Below are positions 5,881-24,755 of a stretch of 49,543 nt of DNA, in pieces. Under the pieces are notes generated by a model, which saw only the letters and a list, made by a program, of their open reading frames with translations, ran no database searches and was not told the origin of the DNA. Made by a program: the position numbers and the translations under genes. The DNA comes from Schaalia turicensis ACS-279-V-Col4 (lineage in GTDB: Bacteria; Actinomycetota; Actinomycetes; Actinomycetales; Actinomycetaceae). Within the stretch, counting starts at the first letter, position 1. Every line of letters starts with the position of its first letter. The DNA is taken from the NCBI RefSeq assembly GCF_000296505.1, contig NZ_JH815208.1, positions 1 to 49,543 of the forward strand, read 5' to 3'.

Positions 5881-7485
5881 TCATTTGGCTACTTCGAGAA
5901 GAACTTCTTCAGCTTCCTTCGTCCACAGACCATCCACCAGCTTGGCAGCAACATCAGGGTACTTGTCACCAAGTTCCGTCAGCGGCGTCAAACCAAGGTC
6001 ATGCAGGGTCGGGAAGACCATGATCTTACCCCCCGACGTACGGTTGATCACCGAGTTGATGGCGTCGCCGAAGCCTGCCATACCGGTCACTGCGTACAGG
6101 GAGATCGACGTATCAATGATGCCGGCTTCGATCTTGCGCAGAACGGTACGCATATCGGAAACATCAGAGCCTGACGTGCCCAGCATGAAAATCTTGCGCT
6201 CGATGATGCCCTGCAGATCAAAGTCACCAAAGGTGCCCGCCGGAATACCAGCGAACGCATTGAGGATCGCACCATCTGCACACATATCGACAGCCTGAGA
6301 AACCAGCGCCGGCACCGGCACCAGGCAGGTGATGTAGGTGTAGCCGTACTCAAGCGGAGTGGTGGAGGTGTTGATGATCTCCAGCGGAACACCGTTCTTT
6401 TCGGCGGTCGGGCCAACGGTCTTCTTCAGACCTGCCAGGCGATCGTCAGAAAGGTCGGTGCCGACAACGGAGATGCCCTCAACACCGGAGGTGACCGCAC
6501 GCATCGTGTGCATCACACCCATCGGGCCGGCGGCACCGATGAACGCGCATTTATCGTTCGGACGCAGGTCGCCGTTAGCGGGGATCCATACATAGCCTTC
6601 GCGCGGGTCCGTGCCGACGGTGCCACAGAAGCGGATAAAGTCGTAGTGAACACGACCGATGTCAAGGCTGACCTTGCGGGAGATGGTTTCTCCGCCGAGG
6701 ACAACACACATGACCGCACGGGTACCGAGCAGCAGAGACGCCTTTTCAATGCCGTCCGCGTCCGCTCCGAAGAAGACGATGTCATCGAAGGTCTGTCCTT
6801 CAAGACCATCAATACCGGCAACGTCAACGGTAACGATCTGCGCAGGCTTGTGATCAGCGGTCAGCTCTTCGACAGAGCCTTCGCCGACAACCAGCAGGCG
6901 ACCACCGTCTGCAACGTGGTTGCGCTCTGCCCACGCGTAGGAGCCTTCAACGGTTGCCCACGGCTCGATCAGGCCAACGGCCGCTGCCGACGGCCCCTCG
7001 GTCACGTGGATCAGGAACTCTTCACCTTCGGGGGAGACGACACAACGCTCATCGACGACCGTGTATTCCTGAAGGGCACCGTCGAAGTTGTAACCGAATG
7101 CGCCATTGGACTTCGCAGTGCGCAGATGCTTCCAGTCAGCCTGGACCAGCAGACGATCGCCAACCTTGAAGTGGGTGACCTTCTCGCCTACCTCGACGAC
7201 GCGGACAACGGGCTCGTGACCCGGAACCGTCGGCTGGGAGCCGGGACGGTAGTTCGGGATCTCGGCAAGTGCTTCGGGGGTGATTCCCGCGATGACTTCG
7301 GACTTACGCGGGTGCTTGTCGAACTGGTGCAACAGCTTCGTGTCAGAGAAGCAGATGCCACATGCCTCAACCTTGAGCATCATCTGGTGAGGGCCGACCT
7401 TGTCGATGCCCTTCTCCTTGTTGACGACGAATTCTTCGGCGCCGACGATCTGGATCGCATACTGCGATTCGGGGTACTCAGTCAT
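5881..7485 (-). CDS. zinc-type (MDR) alcohol/polyol dehydrogenase, oversized
   Basis: This 534-residue protein belongs to the medium-chain dehydrogenase superfamily, whose members oxidise sugar alcohols or keto sugars with NAD(P). The catalytic zinc region is visible: ACGICFSDTKLL (Cys42, Cys45), GHE at 89-91 and VGDRLLVQAD, then NFDGALQEYTVVDERCV. It is far longer than the usual 340-360 residues. An insertion of about 20 residues lies between Cys42 and GHE. There seem to be two successive Rossmann-like halves, one near 200-290 and one near 315-340 (FIGAAGPMG). The structural four-Cys zinc lobe is not apparent. AAGGAG precedes the ATG. It is the last gene of the deoR-E2-E3-E1-php-sdr operon, 34 bp after the SDR gene. 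I infer a role in the same pathway; the substrate is unknown. Confidence 0.85.
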   Translation of the reverse strand: MTEYPESQYAIQIVGAEEFVVNKEKGIDKVGPHQMMLKVEACGICFSDTKLLHQFDKHPRKSEVIAGITPEALAEIPNYRPGSQPTVPGHEPVVRVVEVGEKVTHFKVGDRLLVQADWKHLRTAKSNGAFGYNFDGALQEYTVVDERCVVSPEGEEFLIHVTEGPSAAAVGLIEPWATVEGSYAWAERNHVADGGRLLVVGEGSVEELTADHKPAQIVTVDVAGIDGLEGQTFDDIVFFGADADGIEKASLLLGTRAVMCVVLGGETISRKVSLDIGRVHYDFIRFCGTVGTDPREGYVWIPANGDLRPNDKCAFIGAAGPMGVMHTMRAVTSGVEGISVVGTDLSDDRLAGLKKTVGPTAEKNGVPLEIINTSTTPLEYGYTYITCLVPVPALVSQAVDMCADGAILNAFAGIPAGTFGDFDLQGIIERKIFMLGTSGSDVSDMRTVLRKIEAGIIDTSISLYAVTGMAGFGDAINSVINRTSGGKIMVFPTLHDLGLTPLTELGDKYPDVAAKLVDGLWTKEAEEVLLEVAK

Positions 7486-7519
7486 TGGATTCTCCTTATT
7501 TTCCGGATCAAGCTTGCGC

Positions 7520-8539
7520 TCAGTTCATCATGACTTGGCCACCCGTAACCGGGACGGCCTGGCCGGTTTCGTATGCCTGCTCGACGATGTAGAAGATCGC
7601 GCGCAGAACGTCGATGCCTTGGGCACCACGACGCATCGGAACCTTTGCTTCGTAGAACTCCTTGACGTCCGCGACAGTCTTCGCGCCGGGGACCTTGCCC
7701 GAGTTCAGGTACTGAACGAACAGGCCACGGTCGGGGTCAGACCAGAGCGGGCCGTCGTAGAAATTACCGGGGCAGATTGCGTTGACCTTGACACCATGCT
7801 CGACCATCTCGAGGGCGAAGGACTGGACCAGGCCGATGCCACCGAACTTGGAGCCTGCGTATGCGGCGTTCTTGTTCGAGCCCACCAGACCGGACTTGGA
7901 GTTGATCTGGATAATGTCGGTCAGCCATGCACCAGATGTTGCATGCTGACGAGCAAGCAGACCACCAAGGTGCTTGGTAACCAGGAAGAATGCGACGTAG
8001 TTGATGTCGGTCGACAGGCGGAAAGCAGATGCGTCTTGTTCAAGGACAGATCCCGCACGAACGATGCCTGCGTTAGAGACGATCAGGTCGATACCACCGG
8101 TGACCTTTTCGATTTCCTCGGTCATCGCGGTCACGGATTCTTCATCCGCAACGTTGACGGTAATCGGGTACGTGGTGTCTTCGCCGAGTTCCTTGCACTT
8201 GGCAGCAGCGCCTTCGCCGTTCAGGTCAGCGATGTAGACGAAGCAACCCTGGCCGACGAGGCCTTTGGCGATCTCGGCACCGAAGCCCTGTGCGCCACCG
8301 GTAACCAGCGCGACACGACCGGAGATTTCACGGTCGTTGCGCGGGGTCGCGGTGATCTCGTAGGTTTCTTCGCCGACGGTGACGACGACGGGAAGTTCGG
8401 TTTCGGAAAGAGTCGAAGCATCAACCGTTTCAAGGTTGGCATCGAGGGTCAGGGTCGCAGCCTTATCGGTTGGGCGAACGATGACCGGTCGAGCAAGCGC
8501 GCTCAGGAACAGGCCTCGAAGCAACGGTGCATGAGTCAT
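7520..8539 (-). CDS. short-chain dehydrogenase, sorbitol-6-phosphate dehydrogenase-like
   Basis: This 339-residue SDR oxidoreductase has about 90 residues before the Rossmann core, which starts at VALVTGGAQGFGAEIAKGL. SNAGIVRAG and the catalytic Ser/YAGSK set (INSKSGLVGSNKNAAYAGSK) are intact, so it should be an active NAD(P)-dependent enzyme. The core resembles the dehydrogenase half of bifunctional rhamnulose-phosphate aldolase/dehydrogenases and sorbitol-6-phosphate dehydrogenases. The N-terminal part is too short to be an aldolase and shows no aldolase metal-binding motif. It lies 21 bp from the PHP gene. A likely job is oxidation of a secondary alcohol on a sugar phosphate; that is inference. 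Confidence 0.85.
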   Translation of the reverse strand: MTHAPLLRGLFLSALARPVIVRPTDKAATLTLDANLETVDASTLSETELPVVVTVGEETYEITATPRNDREISGRVALVTGGAQGFGAEIAKGLVGQGCFVYIADLNGEGAAAKCKELGEDTTYPITVNVADEESVTAMTEEIEKVTGGIDLIVSNAGIVRAGSVLEQDASAFRLSTDINYVAFFLVTKHLGGLLARQHATSGAWLTDIIQINSKSGLVGSNKNAAYAGSKFGGIGLVQSFALEMVEHGVKVNAICPGNFYDGPLWSDPDRGLFVQYLNSGKVPGAKTVADVKEFYEAKVPMRRGAQGIDVLRAIFYIVEQAYETGQAVPVTGGQVMMN

Positions 8540-8560: not shown

Positions 8561-9862
8561 TCAGACGGTAGGAATATTTGCTGCGACTTCAGCCGGATCT
8601 GCGCCATCAGCAATAGCGCGTCCAAGCGGAGCGTAGGAAGCAATACGGACGGCAAGGTGCTCAGGAGTGAGTCGCTCGCTACCCAGGATGTTGTACTTCG
8701 GATCGAAGCTGGTCAGGGCCTCGTGCGCGACAAGTGCCCACGTGGCCTCGTTGAGATCTTCGAACTCGGGGCGACGCAGTTCGGGGCAGTTGAAGAGCTG
8801 GCGTGGCTGGTTAATGTCGACGCCGGAGATCTCGAGCATGCCGTGCTTGACTGCGAGTTCATGGATTCGCTTGAGCTGTTCCGGAGTGTTACGCGGAGGC
8901 ATATAGGTAACAGCGCGCAGGCCCTTTTCTTCGAGAGCTTCGAAGAGCTCGTCAAGGAATTCATCTTCGAACTTTTCAGCCTTCTTGTCGCCGGTCGGCG
9001 AAGCGGAAACATCACCGAGGTAGGCGTAGGTGGCAATGGCACCGATGGAATCTGCGAACTGAACAACTTCCTTCGCAGTCGGCAACTCGTCAGTGGGCTG
9101 AATGTAGATGCGACCCAAGTATTCCGACTTCAGTACACCCAGAAGATCGTAGACGAGGTGCGGATTCTCAGCGTCACCGAGTGCGCCTTCGAGGGCTGGC
9201 GGAATGTTGACACCCATGCTCTTCAGGCCATCGACGAGGCTCTGACCGCGACCGAATCCCTTAATGAGAGCCGATGCCATCGCGGCAAGCAGGTGGCGCT
9301 CTGTGATACCGCCACCGTTGGCATACTGAGAGATGCCGACCATGTCAGTTTGAGGATCGAAAGGCTCCAGGCCAAGACCAACGAGGATCTTGTTCGCGGC
9401 CTCAGCCATCTTCAGGGTGCGCTCGAGACGGGCAGCGCGCTTGGGCGCCAACCACTCGGTAACCTTTTCGCGAGCAGGAGCCGGAACACCCTGAACCGTC
9501 ATGTAGGCGATGCCTTCGGAGTCCGGATTGTTCAGCTTACGAGTAGCAAACGGACCGTCGGGATCAAAGAAAGCGCGGATTTCAAAGCCGGTGACTGAGC
9601 CCATTCCCAGCAGACGACATGCGCCGGTCATTTCGGGCGCAGCTGCGATCGAGTCATGATCGACGGAGCCAACAACACGCAGGCCTGCGCGACGAGCATT
9701 CAATGCTGCAGCGGTCGGCGTGTAGGGGCTGAAGGAGTAGCACGTATGAATGTGGTTGTTCGATTCAGGAACCCACGCGGGGAACTCTTCATCATTCAGA
9801 ACTGCGGCAAGAGCGGCGAGGCGGTCCTCCTGGCTCAGGCTAACGTCGTTGGTGGCGTCCAT
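8561..9862 (-). CDS. PHP-domain metal-dependent hydrolase/phosphoesterase-like protein
   Basis: This 433-residue protein opens with the PHP signature: HIHTCYSFSPYTP near residues 37-49 and GSVDHDS near 66-72. These supply metal ligands as in histidinol phosphatases and polymerase PHP domains. Further conserved-looking histidines and acids (ERHLLAAMA, GISGVDINQPRQ) follow in the C-terminal half. No polymerase or other fused domain is present. It sits inside a sugar-catabolic operon between E1 and the SDR, so a phosphatase or hydrolase acting on a pathway intermediate is plausible; its reaction cannot be read from sequence. The ATG has AGGAT upstream. The gap to E1 holds a strong UUCG-loop hairpin. 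Confidence 0.8.
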   Translation of the reverse strand: MDATNDVSLSQEDRLAALAAVLNDEEFPAWVPESNNHIHTCYSFSPYTPTAAALNARRAGLRVVGSVDHDSIAAAPEMTGACRLLGMGSVTGFEIRAFFDPDGPFATRKLNNPDSEGIAYMTVQGVPAPAREKVTEWLAPKRAARLERTLKMAEAANKILVGLGLEPFDPQTDMVGISQYANGGGITERHLLAAMASALIKGFGRGQSLVDGLKSMGVNIPPALEGALGDAENPHLVYDLLGVLKSEYLGRIYIQPTDELPTAKEVVQFADSIGAIATYAYLGDVSASPTGDKKAEKFEDEFLDELFEALEEKGLRAVTYMPPRNTPEQLKRIHELAVKHGMLEISGVDINQPRQLFNCPELRRPEFEDLNEATWALVAHEALTSFDPKYNILGSERLTPEHLAVRIASYAPLGRAIADGADPAEVAANIPTV

Positions 9863-9957: not shown

Positions 9958-12408
9958 TCAGAGACCGAGACGGTTGCGACGAGCAATCTCGCCTTCAGTC
10001 TGGTTCGACGAGGGCACATGGCCCGGGAGCGGAACAATGCGCTCGTGGATTGTGTCGATGATCCACTCGACCTGCGGGAAGAAGTAGGACTCCAACTCGG
10101 GGCCGGGGGTGATGCCGTTGCGCGAGCCGACAACCGCGATCGGCGCGTCGAGAGCGTCAAATGCGAGAGTCTGGACGTTCGCTGCAACGGTGTTGAGGAA
10201 GTTGCCACGCTCGACAGCATCGGAGGTGAGAAGCAGGCGACCTGTCTTCTTCACGGATTCGATGAGCTTGTCGTAGTTGAGCGGTGCGACGAAGCGGAGG
10301 TCGATGACCTCGGCGCTCATGCCGTACTTCTCCTGAAGGACATCAGCAGCCTCAAGTGCACGGTAGATCGTTGCGCCGTAGCCGGCGATCGTGATGTCGG
10401 TGCCTTCGCGACGGATTGCCGGTTCACCTTCGGGGGTCTCGTAGTAGTCTTCCGGAACACCACCGGGCTCGAATTCTTCGCCCTTGTCGTACAGGAGCTG
10501 GGATTCGAAGAAGACAACCGGGTCGGTGCCACGAAGAGCAAGGTTGAGCATGCCCTTTGCATCGGTCGGCGTGGTCGGGAAGTAGACCTTGAGGCCCGGG
10601 ATGTGGGCGGTCAATGCCGACCAATCCTGCGAGTGCTGTGCACCGTACTTGTTACCAACGGAGACACGGAGGACGAGAGGCATCTTCAGCAGGCCAGCGG
10701 ACATGGACTGCCACTTTGCCATCTGGTTGAAGACCTCGTCGCCGCTTCGGCCGAGGAAGTCGCAGTACATGAGTTCGACAACTGCACGGCCACCGGCCAT
10801 TGCGTAGCCAACGCCTGCGCCGACGATTGACGCTTCAGCGATCGGCGAGTTGAACAGACGACGGTACGGAAGCGCTTCGGTCAGGCCACGGTAGACAGCG
10901 AATGCGCCACCCCAGTCACGGTTTTCTTCGCCCCATGCGGCCATCGTCGGATCTTCCTTGAAACGATGGAGCATAGCTTCGAAGAGACCATCACGGAACT
11001 GGTACATCTTCATCTTGGAAACGGGCTTGCCGTTCTCGTCCTTAGCGGTGCGGATCTTGCGCGAGATCGCGGCGACGCGCGGGTTGTTTTCGAGATCAAT
11101 CTCCGCTTCGCCTTCTTCCATCTTCTCGGTCGGCGTGTTCGAGAACATAACCGTGTCGATGTAGCCGTCGGCAACGCGCGGGCAGGTGTCTTCGTCGATG
11201 GCAAGCTTGAGGACCTTAACGAGCTTTTCGGTGAGGGTAGCGGTGTAGTCCTCAATATCGGACTGCGTGGTCAGACCGTTGGAGATCAACAAATCCGAGT
11301 AGGTCTTGATGCAGTCGACCTTCTCCCAGAGCTCGACCTCGTCCTTGGTGCGGTACGAGGAGGCATCCGACGGGGAGTGACCAGAGAAGCGGTACGTGAT
11401 GGTATCCATGAGGACCGGGCCACGTCCCTCTTCGAGGATCTTCTTCTTGCGGGAGACGGCGTCGGCAACAGCCAGCGGGTTAATACCGTCGACGCGCTCT
11501 GCGTGCATAGCCTCGGGGTTGAGGGCTGCACCGACACGGGCGAGGATGTCGTACCCCATGGTCTCACCGAAGGTCTGACCGCCCATGCCGTAGAAGTTGT
11601 TGAAGAAGTTGAACAGAATCGGCGGGTTGCCACCGTCCTCTTCACGCCACAGCGTGCGGAACTGATCCATGGAAGCGAAGTTCATTGCTTCCCAGACCGG
11701 ACCACATGCAAGGGCTGCGTCGCCGACGTTGGAGACAACGATGCCGGGCTTGCGGTTGATGCGCTTAAAGAGTGCTGCACCGTTTGCGACTGGAGCAGAG
11801 CCACCAACGATTGCGTTGTTCGGATAGGAGCCAAACGGCAGGAAGAAGGTGTGCATCGAGCCGCCGAGGCCACGGTTGAAGCCGGACTTGCGGGCGAAGA
11901 TTTCCGCGAGGGCACCGAAGAGGATGAAGTTCTCGGTGAGGTCCTTTGTGTCCTTGTAGTCGATCTTCTCTGCGAACGAGAGGGTCTCGCCGTCGAGGAA
12001 GGTCTTCATGATGTTTTCAAGCTCACCGTTTTCGATCTGGCGCATTGCCGAGTAGCACTTGGCAAGAATTTCACCGTGCGAACGGTGCGAACCAAAAACC
12101 TGGTCATCCGGGGTCAGGACTGATGCCTGGCCAACGTATGCCGATTCCTGACCGATACCAAGGTGAGCCGGACCCCTGTGGTTGTAGGCAATGCCCTGCC
12201 ACTCGCCGGTCTTTTTGATGGAGTCAAGCATGGATTCGAAGGTACGGACCACGATCATGTCGTGGAGCATGTTCACCATGCCGTCCTTGCCATAGCGACC
12301 AAGTTCGGTATCGAGATCAAACGTGTACTGGTTCACCGGGATGTCCGGGAACTGGATATGACCTGTCGCGCGGACCTGCGACGGGTCGATGATCAGAGAC
12401 TTCGTCAT
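9958..12408 (-). CDS. fused alpha-beta E1 of a 2-oxoacid/acetoin dehydrogenase-type complex
   Basis: This 816-residue thiamine-diphosphate enzyme joins the E1 alpha and beta chains that are usually separate. The alpha part (about 1-460) has [24 protein letters not shown] and the TPP motif from [15 protein letters not shown] to [12 protein letters not shown]. The beta part (about 480-816) has [20 protein letters not shown], with the expected TPP-activating Glu, and [15 protein letters not shown]. It should decarboxylate a 2-oxoacid, or cleave an acyloin or diketone, and pass the acyl group to the lipoyl arm of E2. The gene lies 32 bp after E3. Substrate choice between pyruvate, a branched oxoacid and a sugar-derived ketone is open; the operon favours the last. 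Confidence 0.9.
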
Positions 12409-12440
12409 TGTGTCTTACTTCTTTCTTCGTCTGTGGAGGT

Positions 12441-13808
12441 TCAGAGCTTGACGGCCCAGGCAGCCTCGCGAATAACTTCGGAGACAGTCGGGTGGGGGAA
12501 GACAACCTGACGGAGGTCTTCGACGGTCAGTTCCATTTCGAGGACGGCCTGTGCGCCCCAGATCATTTCTGCTGCGTATGCGCCGAGCACATGGATGCCG
12601 AGGACCTGGTGGGTCTTCGGATCAACGAGGATCTTGGCTTCACCAGGAGCCTTGAAGCCGTTCTCCGCAATGAAGCGACCAGACATCTGAGCGGGGACCT
12701 TTGCAACTAGGACGTCGCGGCCTTCGCGCTTTGCAGCAGATTCGGTGAGGCCAACGCCTGCAGCCTCGGGAATGGAGAAGACTGCCCACGGAACAGTGTT
12801 CCAGCGCATAACCTCGCCAACCTTGCATGCATCGGGGTTGATGATGTTCGCGGAAGCAATTTCTGCCATGCGGTATGCGGCGTGTGCTAGCAGTGAACGG
12901 CCGGTGACGTCACCAATTGCCCACACGTTCGGCAGATTGGTACGCATGCAGTCATCGACAACGATGCCTCGGTTGATTTCGAGACCCGCTTCTTCGGCGC
13001 CCCAGCCAGCGGTTGCCGAGCGACGACCAACAGCCATGAGCACGACGTCAGCTTCGAGGACCTTCTTTTCGTCACCCTTCGAGTAGTGGACCGTTGCGCC
13101 GTCGAGAGACTCAACGCGGCAACCGAGTTCGAAGGTGATGCCCTTCATCGCTGCGCGCATCTTGGCAGCCATGTCATCATCCATGAATGGCAGGATTTCC
13201 GGGGTCATTTCGATAATCGTGACCTCCGAGCCGAGGGTCGAGTACAGTGAAGCAAACTCGACGCCGATAACGCCACCACCGATAACGGCGAGACGCTTGG
13301 GGACCTCAGGCAGAGAGAGGATACCGGTCGAATCGACCAGGTGCGGGTTGTCCTTGACACCCGGCAACGGCGGAACAGCGGGAACCGAACCGGTTGCGAT
13401 GATGACGTGCTCGGAAGTGTAGGTGATACCGTCAGCGGTGACCTTGCCGGGACCGTCGAAGTGACCACGTGCGGACACAACGGTGACGCCTGCTCGCTTT
13501 TCGGTTGCTGCAACACCGGAAACGAGGCCCTTAACAACCTTTTCCTTCCAGTCCTGCAGGCGACCCCAGTCGAGGGTCACGCCGGTTGCGTCAACACCGA
13601 ACTGGCCAGCTTCCTTGGCGTGCAGGTAGTTCTTTGCACCAGCAAGGAGGGTCTTGGTCGGGATGCACCCAACGTTAAGGCAGGTGCCACCAAGGTACTG
13701 CTCTTCAATGAGAAGAACCTTTTTGCCGGCGTGCCCCAGACGCTCGGCAGCAAGGTAGCCACCAGGGCCTGCGCCGAGGACAATTACGTCGTAGTGAGTT
13801 TCAGTCAT
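12441..13808 (-). CDS. lpdA: dihydrolipoyl dehydrogenase (E3)
   Basis: This 455-residue flavoprotein disulfide reductase reoxidises dihydrolipoyl groups on E2 and makes NADH. It shows the FAD motif GAGPGGYLAAERLG, the redox disulfide in GGTCLNVGCIPTK, the NAD motif VIGGGVIGVEFAS and the C-terminal HPTVSEVIREA carrying the catalytic His-Glu pair. The length is normal. AGGAG lies about 8 nt before the ATG. It lies between E2 and E1 with short gaps (19 and 32 bp), so it is probably dedicated to this complex. The symbol is by family; the genome may hold another copy. Confidence 0.93.
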   Translation of the reverse strand: MTETHYDVIVLGAGPGGYLAAERLGHAGKKVLLIEEQYLGGTCLNVGCIPTKTLLAGAKNYLHAKEAGQFGVDATGVTLDWGRLQDWKEKVVKGLVSGVAATEKRAGVTVVSARGHFDGPGKVTADGITYTSEHVIIATGSVPAVPPLPGVKDNPHLVDSTGILSLPEVPKRLAVIGGGVIGVEFASLYSTLGSEVTIIEMTPEILPFMDDDMAAKMRAAMKGITFELGCRVESLDGATVHYSKGDEKKVLEADVVLMAVGRRSATAGWGAEEAGLEINRGIVVDDCMRTNLPNVWAIGDVTGRSLLAHAAYRMAEIASANIINPDACKVGEVMRWNTVPWAVFSIPEAAGVGLTESAAKREGRDVLVAKVPAQMSGRFIAENGFKAPGEAKILVDPKTHQVLGIHVLGAYAAEMIWGAQAVLEMELTVEDLRQVVFPHPTVSEVIREAAWAVKL

Positions 13809-13827
13809 TATGTGTACTCCTAATTAC

Positions 13828-15180: not shown

Positions 15181-15190
15181 GTGTTTCCTC

Positions 15191-15943: not shown

Positions 15944-15975
15944 CCCCTCTTCGTGAGCATCGATTAGATTGTCAC

Positions 15976-16022
15976 TTTCGTTTCGGTTTTTACAGTCTAG
16001 CAACTAAAACGAAAATCAACAA
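15976..16022 (-). promoter_or_regulatory. deoR operon promoter with inverted TTTCGTTT operator
   Basis: On the minus strand TTGTTG (plus 16017-16022) lies 17 bp from TAGACT (plus 15994-15999). One TTTCGTTT half (plus AAACGAAA, 16007-16014) falls between the two hexamers. Its inverted partner lies just after the expected start point (plus TTTCGTTT, 15976-15983). This fits autoregulation by the DeoR protein. Two exact copies of TTCACTGAAAAA lie upstream (16053-16064 and 16086-16097) and may be a further protein site. Confidence 0.55.
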
Positions 16023-16110
16023 GACCTGCCTCACAAGAAATAATAGCGACAATTCACTGAAAAACTCACGAAAATATACACAATTTTCACTGAAAAATCG
16101 CCAAATAACG

Positions 16111-16159
16111 AACTGCACTGTCGCTCAAACACTCAACGCGCTTGAACAACAGTGCAGTT
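16111..16159 (-). terminator. stem-loop after fucU, possible terminator
   Basis: AACTGCACTGT (16111-16121) and ACAGTGCAGTT (16149-16159) form a perfect 11-bp stem with a 27-nt loop. It lies just past the fucU stop on the minus strand and is followed by TTATTTGGCGATTTTT. It may separate the transporter/isomerase transcript from the deoR operon. A second inverted pair, TTTCGTA (16158-16164) and TACGAAA (16174-16180), overlaps it and may be an operator. Confidence 0.5.
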
Positions 16160-16183
16160 TCGTATGAAAGTTCTACGAAAGAC

Positions 16184-16615
16184 TCATTCTCCGGGCTGAC
16201 GAACGCCCACAGTCAGCAAAAGATTGCCGTACAGGCGCTGTTCGCCAGTCGCCACAATGATGCCCACATCTTCGCTACGCGCTGCATCGTAGAAGTCGAA
16301 ACGCGACAGCTCACCGAACTCGGTATCGGGCAACTGGGCCTTGAACTCATCATGGATCGGGATCTCAACGGCCGGCTGATCGGGAGCCGGAACCATGATC
16401 TCTGCCTTCTCGATCGGGCAGACCTGCTTCAGAACTTCCAGAATCTGAAGAACGTCCAGCATGCCAGGAGCGAAGTTCAGCGAGATAAGCTCGCAACGCT
16501 CAGACACACCGGTGGTGTGCGGGTAGTTCGCATCAGCAAGCAGAATCTTCGAACCGTGGCCAGCCGCGGCCAGTGCACGCAGGAACTGCGGGTGCGTCAT
16601 TGCTCCATAGATCAT
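16184..16615 (-). CDS. fucU: L-fucose mutarotase (RbsD/FucU family)
   Basis: This 143-residue protein interconverts alpha and beta anomers of L-fucose (or a related deoxysugar) before isomerisation. Family marks are GHGSKILLADANYP near residues 19-32 and RLYGNLLLTVGV near the C-terminus, with the conserved His, Asp and Tyr-Gly-Asn. The length is that of FucU. AAAGGA lies 9 nt before the ATG. It is the last gene of the transporter-fucI-kinase-lacI operon, 15 bp after lacI, which supports a deoxyhexose substrate. RbsD-type ribose pyranase activity is the alternative, but fucI nearby makes fucose more likely. Confidence 0.88.
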   Translation of the reverse strand: MIYGAMTHPQFLRALAAAGHGSKILLADANYPHTTGVSERCELISLNFAPGMLDVLQILEVLKQVCPIEKAEIMVPAPDQPAVEIPIHDEFKAQLPDTEFGELSRFDFYDAARSEDVGIIVATGEQRLYGNLLLTVGVRQPGE

Positions 16616-16630: not shown

Positions 16631-17626
16631 CTATTCAATCGAGCTGGACCGGATGATCAGCTCAGGGTCAATCGTCACATCCTCGCTCTTACCGCCGCGC
16701 ATCATCGAACACACGATACGAACAGCAGCACGACCAAGGCGGTCAAAAGGCTGACGAACAGTCGTCAGCGGAGGGGCATAGCAATCAGCGCCATCAATAT
16801 CATCGAATCCAACGACCTTAACGTCTGTCGGAATCTTCGCTCCCCGTTCGTGAATCAATCGCATGGCACCAAGCGCCAACTGATCATTCGCTGTTTGAAT
16901 TCCCTGGGGAAGCTCTGCCAGCGAGCGCATAGCGTCATATCCATCTTGCGAGTTCCACGAATATGACTCGATCACTTTGCCTTCGACTCCGTGTTCTTCG
17001 CACGAGAGTTTAAAGCCCTGCAAGCGCATGGAAGCATCAGACCAACCCGACGGGCCCGCAACATGAACGATGTCGGTAATCCCTTGATTCAGCAGATGAT
17101 CAGTCGCTAGCTCTGCGCCTCGAACATTATTAATGGACACTGTCGAAATTCCATCCAAATCGTGTTCGCTAGTCAGCACCAAAACCGTCGGAACCCGCTT
17201 GCCAATCTGAATGGCAAGGTCAACGCTCGGGTCCTGTCCAGCAAGGATCACAACCCCATCAACATCGAATGGCGCCACGTCGTTATGCAGTTCACCATTT
17301 GGCACATATGCGTTTGAAAGCGACACGTGATAGCCGGCTTCAGAACCTGCATTCAAAACCGAAAGCAAAACCCTCGCATGCCCGTGAAACATCGGGGCAG
17401 CCAGCAAAACGTGCAGAACGCCCGTCCGATTCGACGCAAGCGCGCGCGCCGCGTAATTCGGTCGATACCCAACTTCAGTAAGGATCAAGGAAATACGCGC
17501 ACGCGTCGCATCCGCAACCTCAGGATCACCGCGAACAACGCGTGAAACGGTATTCGATGAGACGCCCGCTAAACGCGCAACGTCTGCTAGCGAGACCTTC
17601 TTACCTGTTGGACGGCGTGTGGACAT
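16631..17626 (-). CDS. LacI-family transcriptional regulator
   Basis: This regulator of about 331 residues has the LacI helix-turn-helix (VSLADVARLAGVSSNTVSRV) and hinge (NYAARALASNRTGVLHV), then a periplasmic-binding-protein-like sensor domain ending in VGFDDIDGADCYAPPLTTVR. It probably represses the sugar operon and is released by the free sugar. ATG 17626 overlaps the kinase stop (17601) by 26 bp, suggesting coupled translation. The longer TTG frame at 17647 is less likely. Candidate operators CGTTA-N4-TAACG lie upstream of the transporter gene at 24813 and 24921. Confidence 0.9.
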   Translation of the reverse strand: MSTRRPTGKKVSLADVARLAGVSSNTVSRVVRGDPEVADATRARISLILTEVGYRPNYAARALASNRTGVLHVLLAAPMFHGHARVLLSVLNAGSEAGYHVSLSNAYVPNGELHNDVAPFDVDGVVILAGQDPSVDLAIQIGKRVPTVLVLTSEHDLDGISTVSINNVRGAELATDHLLNQGITDIVHVAGPSGWSDASMRLQGFKLSCEEHGVEGKVIESYSWNSQDGYDAMRSLAELPQGIQTANDQLALGAMRLIHERGAKIPTDVKVVGFDDIDGADCYAPPLTTVRQPFDRLGRAAVRIVCSMMRGGKSEDVTIDPELIIRSSSIE

Positions 17627-19010
17627 GGGTCTTTGCCGTTGCCGCAATCATCGCGGGGCGATCCGCGGGATCAAGGTGTCCAAGAAGTTCGAGTTGAGCA
17701 AGAAGCGAACCGAGAGTTGAAGCTTCAATCGGGCCGGCAACAACACGAACCTGCGCCGCTTCTGCCGTGAGATCGCACAGCAGGTGGTTGCGGGCACCTC
17801 CACCCACAAGGTTCAGCTGATCGGGTCGCTCTCCTGAAATCTGAGTCAGCTCATCAATCGCACGCGCATAGCGACGAGCGAAGGATTCGATAATCAGGCG
17901 AACGTACTCGGGCATCGAGGTCGGATGCGGAGCACACTGGTCATCGAGGGCAATATCAATCTTCTGTTGCATCTCACCAGGCTCAGCAAAGCGCGGGTCA
18001 TCCGGGTTGAAGAACACGGTGCACGGTGCACATTCACGGGCCTGCGCGACAAGCTCATCCGTATCAGTCGGAGTTCCTTCACGCTCCCACTGACGCTGGA
18101 TTTCCTGAAGAATCCACATACCCGTGATGTTGAAGAGCGGGCGAACTCCCCCGTCAGTGCGAGATTCGTTCGTCAAACCACGTTCGTATGCAGCATCCGA
18201 GATCAGCGGGTGATCCTCAAGAGCACCAAGAACTGACCAAGAACCACACGAGAGGAAGTACGCGCGGACGCCTTCATCAATGGGCAGACCGTGAACTGCG
18301 CATGCGGAGTCGTGTGCACCACCGCGGACGACGGTCAGTTGCTCGAGGCCTTCGACGGTGCACTGCCCAACAGCGGTGAGGTCGTCATTCAATTCACCAA
18401 CCCACGAGCGATCCAAGCCGAGGCGTTCGAACATGGCGTCGTTGAATCGTGGTGAGCCCGGTTCACATAGACCCGAGGTAGAGGCGATGGTGCGCGACCA
18501 GCCCTTCACTCCGGAAAGCTTCCAGGCGAAGTAGTCAGGAAGGAAAAGAATCGAGTCGGTCTTGGCAGCAAGTTCTGGATCTTCCAACGTAAAAGCCAGA
18601 AGCTGGTTTGCTGTGTTGATCGTTGCCGGGGCGATACCCGACATTTCAAAGAATGTGCGATCATCAACGCGCGAGCGGAATTCTTCGTGTGTGCGCTCGG
18701 TGCGCTCGTCGCGGTAGGCACGAACCTTGCCAACTCGCTCGTTATTTGCATCGAGGGGAACGAAGTCAACACCCCACGTATCCACGGAAACAGACACCGA
18801 GTCCGGGAATTGTTCCACTGCCTTTTTCAAACCGATAACGGTCTGTTCCCACATCGTGTCAACGTCCCAAGTCAACGAACCCGTTTCGTCACGGATTGCC
18901 TGATGCTTGAAACGGTGAACGTCAGTGATCTCAAGACGGCCATCAACAATAGTTCCAGCTAGAACTCGACCCGAAGCGGAACCGAGGTCAACAGCAAGTG
19001 CGGTGGTCAT
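17601..19010 (-). CDS. rhamnulokinase/fuculokinase-type FGGY sugar kinase
   Basis: This kinase of about 469 residues phosphorylates a ketose at C1, here probably L-fuculose (or L-rhamnulose). It opens with ALAVDLGSASGRVLAG. It also has the substrate segment VDTWGVDFVPLD, the ATP-site region GGAHDSACAVHGLP, and LNLVGGGARNHLLCDLTAEAA. The sequence looks most like RhaB-type kinases. I start it at ATG 19010 (AGGAAGGA, 8 nt spacing). An upstream ATG at 19049 adds 13 residues that the family lacks. It follows fucI in the operon across a gap of about 200 bp with two hairpins. Together with FucI it predicts a ketose-1-phosphate product. Confidence 0.88.
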   Translation of the reverse strand: MTTALAVDLGSASGRVLAGTIVDGRLEITDVHRFKHQAIRDETGSLTWDVDTMWEQTVIGLKKAVEQFPDSVSVSVDTWGVDFVPLDANNERVGKVRAYRDERTERTHEEFRSRVDDRTFFEMSGIAPATINTANQLLAFTLEDPELAAKTDSILFLPDYFAWKLSGVKGWSRTIASTSGLCEPGSPRFNDAMFERLGLDRSWVGELNDDLTAVGQCTVEGLEQLTVVRGGAHDSACAVHGLPIDEGVRAYFLSCGSWSVLGALEDHPLISDAAYERGLTNESRTDGGVRPLFNITGMWILQEIQRQWEREGTPTDTDELVAQARECAPCTVFFNPDDPRFAEPGEMQQKIDIALDDQCAPHPTSMPEYVRLIIESFARRYARAIDELTQISGERPDQLNLVGGGARNHLLCDLTAEAAQVRVVAGPIEASTLGSLLAQLELLGHLDPADRPAMIAATAKTHVHTPSNR

Positions 19011-19123
19011 TAAACGGGTCCTTCCTGGTACGGCAGGCGGGATGCTCATTTCGCGTCAATGCGAAGTGGCGACTTTGAGTGTTTTATAGCTTTATGGTCC
19101 GCGTCATCATTGAACGCTTGGGT

Positions 19124-19213: not shown

Positions 19214-20974
19214 TCAGCGGTACATCGGACCGAAGGTCTCGCATGCACGGTAGTCCGCGCCTTCGAGATCAACGGTACCGAACAGCGACCATGCCTTCGG
19301 GCGGAAGATCTTTTCTTCCGGAACGTTGTGCATGTTGACCGGGATACGGAGCATCGAGGCAAGCGTGATGAACAGGGCACCGTTGTGACCGTAGGAAATC
19401 GCGCCGTGGTTTGCGCCCCAGTTGTTCATGACATCGTAGGTCGTCTTAAAGGCACCTTCACCGGTGAGGTTCGGAACGAACCAGGTAGTCGGCCATTCGA
19501 TATTCGTGCGCTCTTCGATGGTGTAAGCAACTTCGTCAGGAAGCTCGACGGTCCAGCCTTCGCAGATCTGCATGACTGGCTTGCCGGCAACCAGGTTAAT
19601 GCGAATCATGGTGACAGGCATTTCACCTTCAGTGCGGAAGTGAGTCGAGAAACCACCACCGCGGAAGTAACCTGTCGATGCTGGGTGGAAGGTGGTTGCC
19701 TCAAGGGTTGCCTTCTGGTCTTCTTCGGTGACCTCCCAGAACGGCTTGATGACGGGCTTACCGTCACGGGTTGCCTTGCCAGCACCGTCAAGGGTGGTGG
19801 AACCGGAGTTGCGCAGGTCAAGGAAGCCCTGTGCCGCGCGCCCTTCCGGCTTCCAGCCGGTGACGCGCTCGACGGACTCGGGGCTCCAGTAGGTGCGAAC
19901 ATCGGAGAAGATCTGGGGCGTATTGGTCAACAGGTAGCCAAACAGCATCGAAGCACCGTTGAGCGAATCGTTCTCGGTTGCAAGAACGTTGGGCTGACGC
20001 GGACCGGTCCAGTCGAAGTTCGTGTTCAGAATGGTTTCCATAACGTCACCATTCGGGAAGTGGTCGGTCCACTGGCGCTGTCCTTGGAAACCTGCGGCGA
20101 TAGCACCGTGGCCACCAGCTTCTTCTTCAAAACCGAGCTCTGCAAGACGTGGGTTGCCGTTCATCAGGTCGCGACCGATCAAGGTCATCTTAGTGACGAA
20201 CTTCCACCAGTCCTCATGCTTCTCTGGGAACTGCCAATCTTCGGGGTTCCAGTCCTTGCCCTGCTTGAAGTTCTCGCGGATCCAGGTGTAAGCCCTCTCG
20301 TATTCTTCCGGATCGTAGATGCCTTCTTCAATGCGGCGGGCGAACTCGGACATGTCGATGTATTCGTTGCGCATTCCAAGGTAGGCACCGAAGAAGTCAG
20401 GGTTGACGACAGAACCAGCAATACCCATGGAAACCGAGCCCATGGACAGGTATGCCTTGCCACGCATCTGGGCAACTGCAAGACCAGCGGTAGCGTAGCT
20501 CAGAAGACGCTCACGAACATCTTCCGGAATGGAATTGTCATCGCCATCCTGGACATCCTTGCCGTAGATGCCGAATGCGGGGATACCGATCTGTGCGTGC
20601 CCAGCAAGAGCTGCTGCCAAGTAGACAGCGCCGGGGCGCTCGGTGCCGTTGAAGCCCCAGATTGCGTGCGGCATGGTGGCATCCATGTCCGTGGTTTCAG
20701 TGCCGTAGCACCAGCAGGGGGTAACGGTCAGGGTCAAGCCGACATTGTTGACGCGGAACTTGTCAGCGCAAGCCATTGCTTCGTGGACACGACCAATGGT
20801 GGTGTCAGCAATGACGCACTCGACGGGGGTGCCGTCGGTGTAACGGAGGTTTTCGGAGAAGAGCTTGGCAACAGCCTCAGCCATGCCCATGGTCTGCTCT
20901 TCGAGGCTTTCGCGGACACCGCGACGGCGACCATCGATTGCCGGGCGGATACCGATGCGGGGGTGATCAGTCAT
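19214..20974 (-). CDS. fucI: L-fucose isomerase
   Basis: This enzyme of about 586 residues matches the FucI length and is expected to convert L-fucose to L-fuculose (and often D-arabinose to D-ribulose) with manganese. Readable family segments are [84 protein letters not shown] and [16 protein letters not shown]. These include the acidic and His metal ligands. ATG 20974 has GAGGGA 6 nt upstream; the frame to 20986 adds four unneeded residues. It lies downstream of the binding-protein gene across a hairpin. This gene gives the best evidence for the substrate of the whole locus. Confidence 0.95.
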
Positions 20975-21046
20975 TTGTTCCCTCATTCCTTGATCAAAAC
21001 TTCATTGTTGAGTGGGGGGCGATTCACACCCCTCGGATCCTACGTG

Positions 21047-21088: not shown

Positions 21089-21095
21089 GTCAACA

Positions 21096-22142
21096 TCACT
21101 CGTAGAGGTTCGGAGCGACCTTGTCAGAGTCGATGTTGGATGCGTCGTACCAGTAGAAGCCGGAGTCAATCGTCTTCGGGAGTGCGATGCCGTTGATTGC
21201 CTGGATGGCTGCAGTGACGGTCTTGTAGCCCATGAGCTTCGGTGCCTGGGTGATGGCGCCGGCCTGCGTGCCGTCCTTGATTGCAGCGATCTGGGTCTTG
21301 CCGGAGTCAAAGCCGACAACGGTCAGGGTCTTGCCGGACTCGTTAGCACCCTGGATGGCGCCGGAAGCTGCTGCTTCGTTGGAGCCGTACATGCCGACGA
21401 TGTCGTCGTTTGCCTGGATGATGGCCTTGGAGGTGTCAGCTGCCTTGCCGACCTCGCCTGCAATCTGCTCTTCGAGGAGCTTCAGGCCCTCGGGTGCGTT
21501 GGCCTTGAAGTATTCCTTGAAACCATCGCAACGCTGCTTGCCGGTGGTGGAGGTTGCGTCGTGGCAGATCACGCCGACGGAGCCGGTCTTGCCATCGAGC
21601 AGTTCGATCATGTGCTTTGCGGCCTCAGCTGCTGCTGCCTTGTTATCGGTCGAAACCGTGGTCAGCGGGAGGTCGGAGTCAACACCGGAGTCGAATGCGA
21701 CCAGCGGGATGCCTGCGGACTCAATCTGGGTGAGTAGCGGGGTTGCTGCGCCCGAGTCGAGAGCTGCAAGGCCGATAGCTGCCGGGGAGGTGTCGAGTGC
21801 TGCCTGGAGCTGGTCGAGCTGCTGGGTCACCTTGGTCTCGTCGTCCGGGCCGACGAACTGGATCTTGTAGTTGAACTCCTTGCCGGCGTCCTCGGCGCCT
21901 TCCTTCACTGCCTGCCAGAAGCGGTGCTGGAAGCCCTTGGAGACGAGGTAGATGGTCTTGGTGCCATCGCCAGCAGGAACTTCGTCAGACTGCTCGGTGA
22001 CCTCTTCCTTTGATGCGGAATCGGAGCCCGATGCCGCTGCGTCGGAACCCGACTCGGAGGTGTTCGAGGTGGAGCAAGCTGCCAGGCCGAAGGCCATGGT
22101 TCCGGCTGCTGCGACTGCAACGATACGGCCGATGGGGCGCAT
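21096..22142 (-). CDS. sugar ABC transporter substrate-binding lipoprotein (CUT2/RbsB-like)
   Basis: This 348-residue lipoprotein has a signal peptide ending in the lipobox LAAC (Cys about residue 23) and a Ser/Glu-rich tether. The type I periplasmic-binding fold begins at KTIYLVSKGFQHRFWQAVKEGAEDA. IGLAALDSGAATPLL, AFDSGVDSDLP and VVGFDSGKTQIAAIKDGTQAG are typical of ribose/deoxysugar binding proteins. It should capture the sugar outside the membrane for the permease and ATPase encoded upstream. Gene order (ATPase, permease, binding protein, enzymes) places it third. With fucI and fucU beside it, L-fucose or a similar deoxyhexose is the likely ligand. Confidence 0.92.
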   Translation of the reverse strand: MRPIGRIVAVAAAGTMAFGLAACSTSNTSESGSDAAASGSDSASKEEVTEQSDEVPAGDGTKTIYLVSKGFQHRFWQAVKEGAEDAGKEFNYKIQFVGPDDETKVTQQLDQLQAALDTSPAAIGLAALDSGAATPLLTQIESAGIPLVAFDSGVDSDLPLTTVSTDNKAAAAEAAKHMIELLDGKTGSVGVICHDATSTTGKQRCDGFKEYFKANAPEGLKLLEEQIAGEVGKAADTSKAIIQANDDIVGMYGSNEAAASGAIQGANESGKTLTVVGFDSGKTQIAAIKDGTQAGAITQAPKLMGYKTVTAAIQAINGIALPKTIDSGFYWYDASNIDSDKVAPNLYE

Positions 22143-22236: not shown

Positions 22237-23238
22237 TCAGGCTGCGTTCTCGCGAGCGCGGCGGATGTTGTCAATGAAGACTGCGAGGAGAACAACGATA
22301 CCGGTAACGACCAGCTGCCATTCAGAAGCAACACCCATCATCGTCAGGCCCTTCTTCAGGGTTTCCATGATGAGTGCACCAACGAATGCACCTGGGATCG
22401 ATGCGCGGCCACCGGAGAGTGACGTGCCACCGATAACGGTTGCTGCGATGACGTTGAGTTCGAAGCCGACGCCTTCAGCGGGCTGGACGAAGCCGAAACG
22501 TGCCGAGTAGAGGATTGCGCCGATTGCCATGAAGACACCAGCGGTGATGTAGATGATGACCTTCCAGAGGCGGACGTTCACACCGGAGAGGCGGGTTGCT
22601 TCCTCGTTCGAGCCAATGGCCAGAGCGTAACGACCAAGGAGGGTCTTGTTCAGCAGGAACGCTGCAAGAATCGTCAAGATGATGAAGATGACTGCTGCGT
22701 TCGAAACGCCCGGGATGATCGAACCGGTGGATAGTGCGATGTAGCCAGGGTTTGCGATCGAGATCGTGGACTTATCGGAGATGATCAGTGCCAGACCACG
22801 GGCCACCATCATCATTGCCAGTGTTGCAATGAACGGCGGAAGACCGAGAATCGAGATGTTCAGGCCGTTGATCAGACCAACGAAAGCACCGAACAGGAGA
22901 ACGAGGATAAGACCGACCCCCAGGGGCAGGTTCAGCCAGTCAGCCGACAGGAAGACACCGGCCATAACGGCGACGAGGGTCATGCCCGTACCGACCGAGA
23001 GGTCAATGCCGGATGTTGCGATAACGAACGTTGCGCCGAGAGCCATCACGCCGGTGTAGGCGGCCTGCAGAAGAATATCGGTAAAGATCTTCGGCTGCGC
23101 AAAGTTCGGGGCTGCGAACATGAAGTATGCGTAGATGATGACCAGTGCGATGATCACCATGACTAGCTGCATGTTCGATTTGAAGAAGGCTGCCACCGGG
23201 CTGGTGGACTTTTCCGCCTTAGTAGCTGCGGTGCTCAC
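22237..23238 (-). CDS. sugar ABC transporter permease (RbsC-like)
   Basis: This 333-residue membrane protein has about eight to ten hydrophobic helices. It carries the CUT2 permease signatures ATSGIDLSVGTGMTLVAVMAG, GLINGLNISILGLPPFIATL and NVIAATVIGGTSLSGGRAS. It forms the channel of the importer, as a dimer by family analogy. Its start overlaps the end of the ATPase gene by 4 bp (23235-23238), so the two are translationally coupled. The next gene, the binding protein, follows 94 bp later. Confidence 0.93.
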   Translation of the reverse strand: MSTAATKAEKSTSPVAAFFKSNMQLVMVIIALVIIYAYFMFAAPNFAQPKIFTDILLQAAYTGVMALGATFVIATSGIDLSVGTGMTLVAVMAGVFLSADWLNLPLGVGLILVLLFGAFVGLINGLNISILGLPPFIATLAMMMVARGLALIISDKSTISIANPGYIALSTGSIIPGVSNAAVIFIILTILAAFLLNKTLLGRYALAIGSNEEATRLSGVNVRLWKVIIYITAGVFMAIGAILYSARFGFVQPAEGVGFELNVIAATVIGGTSLSGGRASIPGAFVGALIMETLKKGLTMMGVASEWQLVVTGIVVLLAVFIDNIRRARENAA

Positions 23239-24755
23239 GCGAGAACTCCATTCGCTTCTTCCTGACCAACGGTGGCCAGTTCCATGATGTTTTCCTGGGT
23301 GGCGACCTCGTTGTCGAGTGTGCCGATGATGCGGCCGTGGGCCATAACTGCGATGCGGTTTGCCAGGCGCAGAACCTCAGGCAGTTCGGAGGAGATCACG
23401 ATGATCGCCTTGCCCTGCTTGGCAAGAGCCTCCAGAAGTGTGTAGATTTCATCCTTCGCGCCAACATCGATGCCTCGGGTCGGTTCGTCGAAGATCAGCA
23501 CGTCGGAGTCGCGGACAAGCCACTTGGCGATAACGACTTTCTGCTGGTTACCACCAGAGAGGGAACGAACTTCAGTGTGAATCGAAGGGGTACGAGTGCG
23601 GAGCTTCGCGACGTATTCCTGAGCTACTGCGTCGATCTTCTTGGAGTTGATGACGCCGGCACTGGTGAATTCGCTCATCGTAGCCATTGCAGTGTTGTCT
23701 GCGATGGTCTTGTCGAGAAGAAGACCGAACTGCTTACGATCTTCGGAGAGGTAGCCGATGCCAACCTTAACGCCGTCAGCTGCGTTGCGGATCGAGACCT
23801 TCTTACCGTTGATGTAGACATCGCCGGAAGTATGGGGGTCAGCACCGGAGAGAGCGCGAGCAACTTCGGTACGACCTGCGCCAACGAGACCTGCGAAGCC
23901 GAAGATTTCGCCCTTCTTAACCTCGAAGGACACATCGTGGACGGCCTTCTTCGTGGACAGGTGCTCAACCTTCAGAACTGCTTCGTCAGACAGAGGCTTA
24001 GTGGTGGGGCGAGCATCAGCCGGAACCTCGCGACCAACCATGAGGCGAATAACCTCGGAGAGTTCGGTGGCCTTGGTATCGACGGTGCCGACGTACTCAC
24101 CATCGCGCAGAACAGAGATGCGGTCAGTGAGCTCCTTGAGCTCAGGCATACGGTGCGTGATGAAGATCAGGCCGGTTTCCGGAGTAATGAAGTTGCGAAC
24201 GAGCTCGAACAGGGATTCGGTCTCAGTCGTGGTCAGAGGAGCTGTGGGCTCGTCCATGACCAGGATCTTCGTTGACTCGTAGGAAAGTGCACGGGCAATT
24301 TCAAGCATCTGCAGACGGGCAACCGTGAGGTCACGGCAGGTGTCCGCCGGGTTCAGGTCCATGTTCAGGCGCTCGAACAGCTCCTTAGCATCCTTGTTGA
24401 GCTTGCGGTCGTTGATGACCGAGCCTTTGTGGGAGCCAGCACGACCGATGTACAGGTTCTGCGCAACCGTGAGGTCTGGAATAATGTTGAGCTCTTGGTG
24501 AATGATGCTCAAACCCAGATCACGAGCATGGTTGGCGTTCTTGACATCAACCTTCTGCCCCTGGAGCCAAATCTCACCGCCCGGATCCGCCTTATGGATA
24601 CCAGTGAGAACCTTCATCAGCGTCGACTTACCGGCGCCGTTCTCACCACAGAGACCCAAGATCTCGCCAGCGTTAAGGTCAAGGTCCACGTTGGACAACG
24701 CCTTGACGCCAGGGAATGTCTTTGAGATCCCCTTTAACTCAAGTAACTTTGTCAC
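23235..24755 (-). CDS. sugar ABC transporter ATP-binding protein, two ATPase domains (RbsA/MglA-like)
   Basis: This 506-residue protein has two ABC domains. The first has GLCGENGAGKSTLMKVLTG (Walker A) and KILVMDEPTAPLTTTE (Walker B). The second has the degenerate GFAGLVGAGRTEVARALSG, the signature LSGGNQQKVVIAKWL and DVLIFDEPTRGIDVGAK. This tandem design is typical of CUT2 importers for ribose, galactose, fucose or rhamnose. The start is GTG 24755 with AAGGGG about 7 nt upstream. It is the first gene of the operon; two LacI-type operator candidates lie 58 and 166 bp upstream. Confidence 0.94.
   Translation of the reverse strand: MTKLLELKGISKTFPGVKALSNVDLDLNAGEILGLCGENGAGKSTLMKVLTGIHKADPGGEIWLQGQKVDVKNANHARDLGLSIIHQELNIIPDLTVAQNLYIGRAGSHKGSVINDRKLNKDAKELFERLNMDLNPADTCRDLTVARLQMLEIARALSYESTKILVMDEPTAPLTTTETESLFELVRNFITPETGLIFITHRMPELKELTDRISVLRDGEYVGTVDTKATELSEVIRLMVGREVPADARPTTKPLSDEAVLKVEHLSTKKAVHDVSFEVKKGEIFGFAGLVGAGRTEVARALSGADPHTSGDVYINGKKVSIRNAADGVKVGIGYLSEDRKQFGLLLDKTIADNTAMATMSEFTSAGVINSKKIDAVAQEYVAKLRTRTPSIHTEVRSLSGGNQQKVVIAKWLVRDSDVLIFDEPTRGIDVGAKDEIYTLLEALAKQGKAIIVISSELPEVLRLANRIAVMAHGRIIGTLDNEVATQENIMELATVGQEEANGVLA

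Follow-up and report, generated by a model that had tools for sequence, protein, structure and literature searches.

A putative L-fucose operon of Schaalia turicensis in which a dedicated E1-E2-E3 complex may take part in replacing fuculose-phosphate aldolase

The closest described route for L-fucose is the FucI-FucK-FucA pathway of E. coli. FucU and FucI provide L-fuculose, and a kinase converts it to fuculose-1-phosphate. Here we describe a putative L-fucose operon on a 49,543-nucleotide stretch of Schaalia turicensis ACS-279-V-Col4 (contig NZ_JH815208.1, positions 1 to 49,543; hereafter the window) that has FucI, FucU and an FGGY kinase in common with E. coli, but is without FucA, FucO and AldA. 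In their place it encodes an E1-E2-E3 complex, a PHP-fold protein, a short-chain dehydrogenase/reductase (SDR) and a medium-chain dehydrogenase/reductase (MDR), together referred to as the module. A 2017 survey reports that FucA is absent from 23 gut genomes, Clostridia and Actinobacteria among them, and leaves the gap unsolved (PMC5583593). The module is a candidate, testable answer to the missing FucA in these two groups. Among the titles and abstract openings listed from the open-licence PMC literature, none describes the module or its route, and the module may represent a hitherto undescribed direct conversion of fucose to acetyl-CoA. If so, module carriers would convert fucose to acetyl-CoA instead of lactaldehyde and 1,2-propanediol, predictions of propanediol and propionate cross-feeding would change, and sugars would join the substrates of acetoin-type chemistry.

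The operon consists of 14 minus-strand genes running from 24755 to 5881 and encoding, in order, a sugar importer, FucI, the FGGY kinase, a LacI regulator, FucU, a DeoR regulator, E2, E3, a fused E1, the PHP-fold protein, the SDR and the MDR. The gaps between genes are mostly shorter than 110 bases, except for those between fucU and deoR (180) and between fucI and the kinase gene (164). This confirms the one-strand locus described by a sequence-only reading of the same DNA, together with its claim that no class II aldolase accompanies FucI: no FucA/RhaE-type aldolase was found in the window. FucI (19214..20986) passes the cut-offs of both NF008220 and TIGR01089, the kinase (17601..19049) is nearest to RhaB but below the cut-off, and the FucU/RbsD-family mutarotase (16184..16615) matches PF05025. 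The module follows with an E2 that has lipoyl, E3-binding and acyltransferase domains (13828..15180; PF00198), an E3 dihydrolipoyl dehydrogenase over the TIGR01350 cut-off (12441..13808), a fused E1 alpha-beta protein (9958..12408), the PHP-fold protein (8561..9862), the SDR, which has an N-terminal extension of about 70 aa (7520..8539), and a 534-aa MDR-family dehydrogenase (5881..7485; PF08240). We consider that the module very probably stands in for FucA. The module and the replacement are well supported, and the chemistry of the route is unproven.

The sequence-only reading had named a fuculose-phosphate aldolase induced by the same regulators as a finding that would refute it. The genome-wide search for aldolases covered the relatives of the window, and eight of the 34 actinobacterial module genomes had no PF00596 aldolase other than AraD. 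Among the 49 genomes of PHP loci searched, PF00596 matches were absent from five (G004, G014, G021, G031 and G045, the last from Atribacterota), and G005, G007, G008 and G009 had a single match each, AraD over the cut-off. The clearest examples are the genomes of Schaalia odontolytica (G009, complete) and Pauljensenia hongkongensis (G031, a single-chromosome record); the others are drafts. The remaining 26 actinobacterial module genomes had further class II aldolase matches, including RhaE-like proteins. Seven strong class II aldolase matches from actinobacterial module genomes were scanned and pass the AraD model (L070, L073, L075, L076, L077, L081 and L085), those of L087 and the spirochaetal L089 pass no model, and three of the weaker, longer-frame actinobacterial matches (L190-L192) are RhaE-like by their letters, the L192 frame being shared with a kinase-like part.

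A class II aldolase was present on only 3 of 47 FucI stretches from genomes with PHP or E1 (L021, L157 and L109), compared with 5 of 6 stretches from genomes without PHP (p 1e-4). The six stretches, of 16 kb each, were drawn from the 13 FucI genomes without PHP in the family of G001 (Actinomyces culturomici); the aldolase lies near fucI in L090-L093 and L095 and not in L094. None of these five aldolases passes a FucA cut-off, so that their 'FucA' label rests on position. Those of L093 and L095 match FucA and ribulose-1-phosphate aldolase models best, and those of L090-L092 match a 3-oxo-tetronate 4-phosphate decarboxylase model best, below its cut-off.

To what extent the module travels with FucI was assessed in 62 genomes of PHP loci, and FucI was present in 58 (47/49 and 11/13), including cases in which it is not adjacent; this count omitted L023, the close kin L010, L011 and L053, the archaeal L066 and L067, and L069, whose isolate name equals that of L057. 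Among the 151 genomes of the family of G001, FucI exceeds the cut-off in 24, and all 11 genomes with PHP have it. In Clostridia, FucI was found in 47 of the 59 genomes with both PHP and E1 compared with 75 of 332 others (p 6e-17). A FucI tree, built from 32 of 41 candidate rows (the others had no frame over 500 aa), places the module-linked and FucA-linked FucI of Actinomycetota in sister clades. We had considered that FucI and the module were transferred together between phyla; this tree does not show it.

These data bear on a further explanation, in which fuculose-1-phosphate is cleaved by an enzyme encoded outside the operon, either a housekeeping class II fructose-bisphosphate aldolase or a different aldolase, and the module acts on a second sugar. 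The window does encode such an enzyme (43612-44628), which is 71% identical to the product of the gene beside the L096 fuc operon, and the module of Arachnia and Tessaracoccus frequently lies far from fucI. Against this, FucI and the module co-occur even when unlinked, and they share a single operon in the window and in L146-L148, where the operon ends in FucI. We regard this explanation as very unlikely.

One scan of genome contigs gave 69 loci, through which the neighbourhood was followed with the window proteins as tblastn queries, leaving out L067, which has no PHP match. The named homologues closest to the window PHP protein come from Schaalia and Actinomyces. Of the 62 loci with at least 2.6 kb upstream of PHP, 57 have E1 on that side; E2 and E3 lie upstream in 53 and 51 of 57, respectively, and 61 of 64 have the SDR downstream. 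The loci in which E1 was not found despite sufficient room are L056, L062, L065, the archaeal L066 and L030, whose module is divided between places on the same stretch. The PHP loci are carried by Actinomycetaceae, Propionibacteriaceae, Spirochaetota and Atribacterota, plus single odd records, and the two Atribacterota loci are without E3; no relative was found among viral contigs. Actinomycetota, Spirochaetota and Clostridia all have the core E2-E3-E1-PHP-SDR, and the conservation that the sequence-only reading wished to see checked extends across several phyla. The MDR varies more. Its window type lies downstream of PHP in 26 of 57 loci, and a second type of about 420 aa (22-29% identical) occupies the same place in spirochaetal and other loci. 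Spirochaetal loci also encode a distant sugar-kinase-like protein (in L048 with no NCBIfam match at 1e-25), as well as a PfkB-like kinase and an iron-alcohol-dehydrogenase-like protein, both below cut-offs. In a single case, a hint only, split transketolase genes immediately precede PHP, where E1-E2-E3 would otherwise lie (L056, 7804-11161). Separately, L010 (record title Sanguibacter keddieii) and L053 (Xylanimonas cellulosilytica) carry Schaalia-like loci in the same order with 77-79% PHP identity, which suggests that these assemblies are mislabelled.

The fused E1 and PHP also co-occur in Clostridia. Among 391 genomes, 64 have the PHP family, 76 have the fused E1 (picked by hand at an identity of at least 50%, fragments included) and 59 have both, leaving five with PHP only and 17 with E1 only (Fisher p 3.6e-48); FucI carriers in this survey are those over the cut-off. 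The SDR was found at E 1e-40 in 60 of the 64 genomes with PHP. In L146, L147 and L148 the genes run consecutively as MDR-E2-E3-E1-SDR-PHP-kinase-FucI, adjoining a divergent DeoR gene. In other clostridial loci PHP is accompanied by a kinase and a RhaE-like aldolase, and two of these (L149 and L158) also encode RhaI over the cut-off. A second clade of fused E1s, of 51-55% identity, was also observed in Clostridia (L172, L174, L178 and L179), where it is accompanied by E2-E3 and, as judged by eye, a SorC-like regulator; no PHP or SDR of the module type lies nearby.

Whether the complex is private to the operon or is the pyruvate dehydrogenase of the cell depends on what else oxidises pyruvate. 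AceE was found in 33 of the 34 actinobacterial module genomes and in none of 15 other genomes. Pyruvate:ferredoxin oxidoreductase (PFOR) exceeds the cut-off in 66 of 80 genomes; the 80 comprise four Spirochaetota and the 76 E1-carrying Clostridia. A complex serving as the only pyruvate dehydrogenase of the cell, which the sequence-only reading had allowed would undermine it, is thus unsupported in the relatives with the exception of G031, and the reading's private complex holds: nearly all module relatives have AceE or PFOR. We consider it highly probable that this complex does not serve as the pyruvate dehydrogenase of the cell.

E1 alpha, E1 beta, E2 and E3 are encoded together, as in acetoin dehydrogenase complexes, and the neighbouring MDR parallels the butanediol dehydrogenase beside an acetoin-type complex. 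In an alignment of E1 alpha, all eight fused E1s of the module family read HRSHG and four acetoin-type E1s read HRGHG, whereas pyruvate dehydrogenases have Tyr in place of the His (human YRAHG and Methylocystis PdhA YREHG). The four acetoin-type E1s were labelled by an adjoining butanediol dehydrogenase gene (Enterococcus), an acetoin reductase gene (Acinetobacter), annotation as acoA (Thermus) and similarity (Klebsiella). In the fused E1s, Pro also replaces the Phe of GF(C/V)H. The window E2 has PF00198; an AcoC-like E2 was seen only in a Rhizobium relative, below the cut-off, and some acetoin-type operons carry a differently annotated E2. The relative, a fused E1 on a Rhizobium plasmid, is about 50% identical over the alpha part and lies within a sugar operon, where the best curated match of the E2 part is acetoin E2 (178 bits, cut-off 307). 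Collectively, residue, partner and genomic context support a role that appears to be acetoin-dehydrogenase-like rather than pyruvate-like, in agreement with the cleaving role proposed by the sequence-only reading. In the same Rhizobium locus (L180, NC_008383 pRL8, 12001-16484) and in L181, the fused E1 is found with a lipoyl-domain protein, an AcoC-like hydrolase and a PfkB-like kinase, as well as a sugar-binding regulator. E1-E2-E3 operons with a sugar-binding regulator were also observed on plasmids of Clostridioides (L184), next to glycosidase genes, and Priestia (L187), next to a divergent glucitol phosphotransferase system; these are perhaps further sugar-linked complexes.

The complex could instead be a pyruvate or 2-oxoacid dehydrogenase that finishes lactate or pyruvate derived from the sugar behind an unrecognised aldolase, which would make the route ordinary in outline. 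The best library matches of E1 and E2 are indeed pyruvate dehydrogenase models, G031 is without AceE, and lactate dehydrogenases occur in the RhaR regulons of some Actinomycetales and Rhodobacterales (PMC3870299). Nevertheless, none of the listed matches of E1 and E2 reaches its cut-off, the module genomes tested almost all have PFOR or AceE, and E1 has the acetoin-type His. A second enzyme for pyruvate oxidation is seldom needed in strict anaerobes, and we judge this explanation unlikely.

The SDR may supply the complex with an acyloin-like substrate. The only clostridial module SDR scanned, that of the L147 FucI operon, passes the cut-off of the sorbitol-6-phosphate dehydrogenase model (371 compared with 307). 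The window SDR, which we describe as sorbitol-6-phosphate-dehydrogenase/RhaW-like, matches the RhaEW model only from residue 58 (136 bits, cut-off 568) and has no fused RhaE aldolase domain. Fischer projections compared from the methyl end show that L-fuculose-1-phosphate agrees with D-sorbitol-6-phosphate at the oxidised carbon and the next, not the third, and that rhamnulose-1-phosphate agrees with it at the first carbon only. A structure model of the PHP protein (pLDDT 91) matches PHP phosphoesterases, and no non-PHP fold stood out among the matches listed. The PHP metal-ligand set consists of HxH..D, DHD, E, HP and DxH. The protein retains HxH, DHD and E, but its alignment to 3e0f places a Phe where the Asp would follow HxH, and Y and DxN occupy the positions of HP and DxH in the family. 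Since the metal-ligand motifs are altered, a plain trinuclear phosphatase appears unlikely on the basis of the alignments.

We favour the following scheme. The SDR would oxidise C5 of fuculose-1-phosphate to give 6-deoxy-5-keto-fuculose-1-phosphate, whose methyl end (CH3-CO-CHOH-) would be an acetoin-like acyloin. 6-Deoxy-5-ketofructose-1-phosphate, a relative of this intermediate, is an archaeal metabolite. E1 would then add thiamine diphosphate to the C5 ketone and break the C4-C5 bond, the acetyl group would pass via lipoyl-E2 to CoA, and E3 would yield NADH. The C4 remainder, OHC-CHOH-CO-CH2OP, would be a 1,3-dicarbonyl. In the weakest step, PHP would hydrolyse this aldehyde to formate and dihydroxyacetone phosphate (DHAP); alternatively, and as weakly, the MDR would oxidise it to a beta-keto acid that loses CO2 to give DHAP. 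PHP would thus act after E1, unlike in the sequence-only reading, which had it act before cleavage. Overall, fucose would yield acetyl-CoA, DHAP and formate or CO2 without passing through lactaldehyde or pyruvate. We lean slightly towards acyloin-type cleavage by the complex. C5 oxidation combined with PHP as the last hydrolase is doubtful, and the whole scheme, an L-fucose operon in which E1-E2-E3, PHP, SDR and MDR replace FucA, is tentative and falls somewhat short of an even chance. Of the sequence-only interpretation as a whole, the aldolase-free locus, the dedicated acetoin-like complex and the conservation stand, and the chemistry is what is unproven.

A rival explanation divides the labour differently. 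The SDR is 53-58% identical to the SDR parts of frames longer than 640 aa. Among the 60 clostridial genomes with the SDR, 17 have an SDR frame of more than 600 aa, and the four that were read (L150, L153, L154 and L156) owe their extra length to a class II aldolase-like domain. These fusions lie near PHP, three of them near apparent parE/parC, and that of L154 is below all listed cut-offs. PHP, alone or after C4 oxidation by the SDR, could be the missing C-C cleaving enzyme, converting the ketose-1-phosphate to DHAP and L-lactaldehyde, or to L-lactate through hydrolysis of a 2,4-diketone; the SDR, MDR and complex would then process the C3 product, for example from lactaldehyde via methylglyoxal to acetyl-CoA and formate. 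Consistent with this, fucose loci have PHP mostly without an aldolase, and rhamnose loci have RhaE besides. Fuculose- and rhamnulose-1-phosphate would converge upon oxidation at C4, and the relation of the SDR to aldolase-fused frames is in keeping with it. We know of no PHP-fold aldolase, PHP would be redundant in rhamnose loci that retain RhaE, and an SDR of the sorbitol-6-phosphate type does not point to a C3 aldehyde substrate. RhaEW is reported to have formed neither DHAP nor lactate without NAD+ (PMC3870299), as if oxidation precedes cleavage; this requirement fits oxidation before cleavage, and lactate as the product favours C4 rather than C5 oxidation in RhaEW. Cleavage by PHP nonetheless seems rather unlikely to us.

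Several observations weigh against the favoured scheme. The window SDR does not pass the sorbitol-6-phosphate dehydrogenase cut-off (210, cut-off 307), and the passing L147 enzyme stands alone among clostridial module SDRs as the one scanned. The module SDR group is related to RhaW also, whose parent RhaEW is reported to yield lactate (PMC3870299). PHP is found in clostridial loci that retain a class II aldolase (L142, L149, L151, L158 and L159), in two of them (L142 and L151) together with the SDR, and acyloin cleavage would be unnecessary there; in some clostridial loci PHP also adjoins apparent parE/parC, as judged by eye. FucI is absent from 12 of the 59 Clostridia with PHP and E1, including G400, in which the module lies on a 2.97-Mb contig. 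The aldolase contrast used queries partly taken from the PHP-less stretches themselves, although those genes were first found by other queries (34-48% identity), and some of the 47 stretches are short (L110-L114, 3.8-9.5 kb) or cut beside fucI. A fructose-bisphosphate aldolase gene adjoins the fuc operon in L096 (scanned) and in L097 and L108 (by letter similarity). AceE was not found in the single-chromosome record of G031, and PFOR gave only lower-scoring matches, below cut-off, in 14 of the 80 genomes. The His criterion is our own and is drawn from few sequences; the His is also present in two sugar-linked E1s outside the family (Clostridioides and Priestia, the latter annotated pdhA) and in a Shinella E1, and is thus not specific to acetoin. 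With two dehydrogenases and PHP, the module has one more enzyme than the scheme calls for. Finally, the LacI palindrome of the fuc operon was not found ahead of unlinked modules.

This palindrome, of LacI type, lies near GGTGCTAGCGTTAACATC upstream of the importer operon in all six loci examined (L096-L099, L104 and L108), with 0-4 mismatches. A common regulator site for the fuc operon and the unlinked module was considered and rejected, the palindrome having 8 mismatches before the module (6/6); summed mismatches before unlinked modules were 59, compared with 66-69 in three shuffles. A search for motifs upstream of modules gave none above shuffles. A DeoR regulator mostly accompanies the module in relatives (49 of 55 loci). 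In the window, two near-copies of TTTTTCAGTGAA on the minus strand form a candidate DeoR site in the fucU-deoR gap (16048..16097). The copies were noticed first and searched for afterwards, which gave two matches at up to 3 mismatches compared with a shuffle mean of 0.35; at least two matches occurred in 5 of 100 shuffles, and a looser form of the pattern had no exact match in the other 189 loci. The DeoR-family regulator itself is encoded at 15191..16003 and the LacI-family regulator at 16631..17647. The importer comprises an RbsA-type sugar ABC importer ATPase (23235..24755), an RbsC-type permease (22237..23238) and a sugar-binding protein (21096..22142; Peripla_BP_4).

Beyond E. coli, the module can be set beside several described systems. 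The aco operon, with acetoin dehydrogenase and 2,3-butanediol dehydrogenase, likewise pairs a non-housekeeping E1-E2-E3 complex bearing the E1 alpha His with an adjacent dehydrogenase. It differs from the window, which has a fused E1, a sugar isomerase, a kinase, PHP and an SDR, and whose substrate is presumably a sugar phosphate. The bifunctional rhamnulose-1-phosphate aldolase/lactaldehyde dehydrogenase RhaEW shares a related SDR domain and a place in deoxyhexose catabolism (Rodionova 2013, PMC3870299); the window SDR has no aldolase domain, is below the model cut-off and is joined by an extra complex and PHP. The non-phosphorylated fuconate (Fcl) pathway is set apart by the kinase of the window operon, in which no fuconate dehydratase gene was found. 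The PHP protein departs from the phosphoesterases BAD_1165 (3e0f), Cv1693 (2yb1) and RNase AM in its Phe after HxH (relative to 3e0f) and a long helical insertion, and from the usual PHP motifs in its Y and DxN. The Rhizobium pRL8 operon resembles the window in its fused E1, sugar importer, RbsD/FucU protein and sugar kinases, but has an AcoC-like split E2 and a psicose-epimerase-like protein, and no FucI, PHP or SDR among its annotated genes. The fused-E1 family could found a class of lipoate-dependent sugar-cleaving complexes, a possibility we hold at a little under even. Such ketose or acyloin dehydrogenase complexes would convert oxidised or deoxy ketose phosphates directly to acyl-CoA and a shorter sugar phosphate, with neither aldolases nor pyruvate involved, and the class would have the fucose module of several phyla and the Rhizobium sugar operon as two of its branches.

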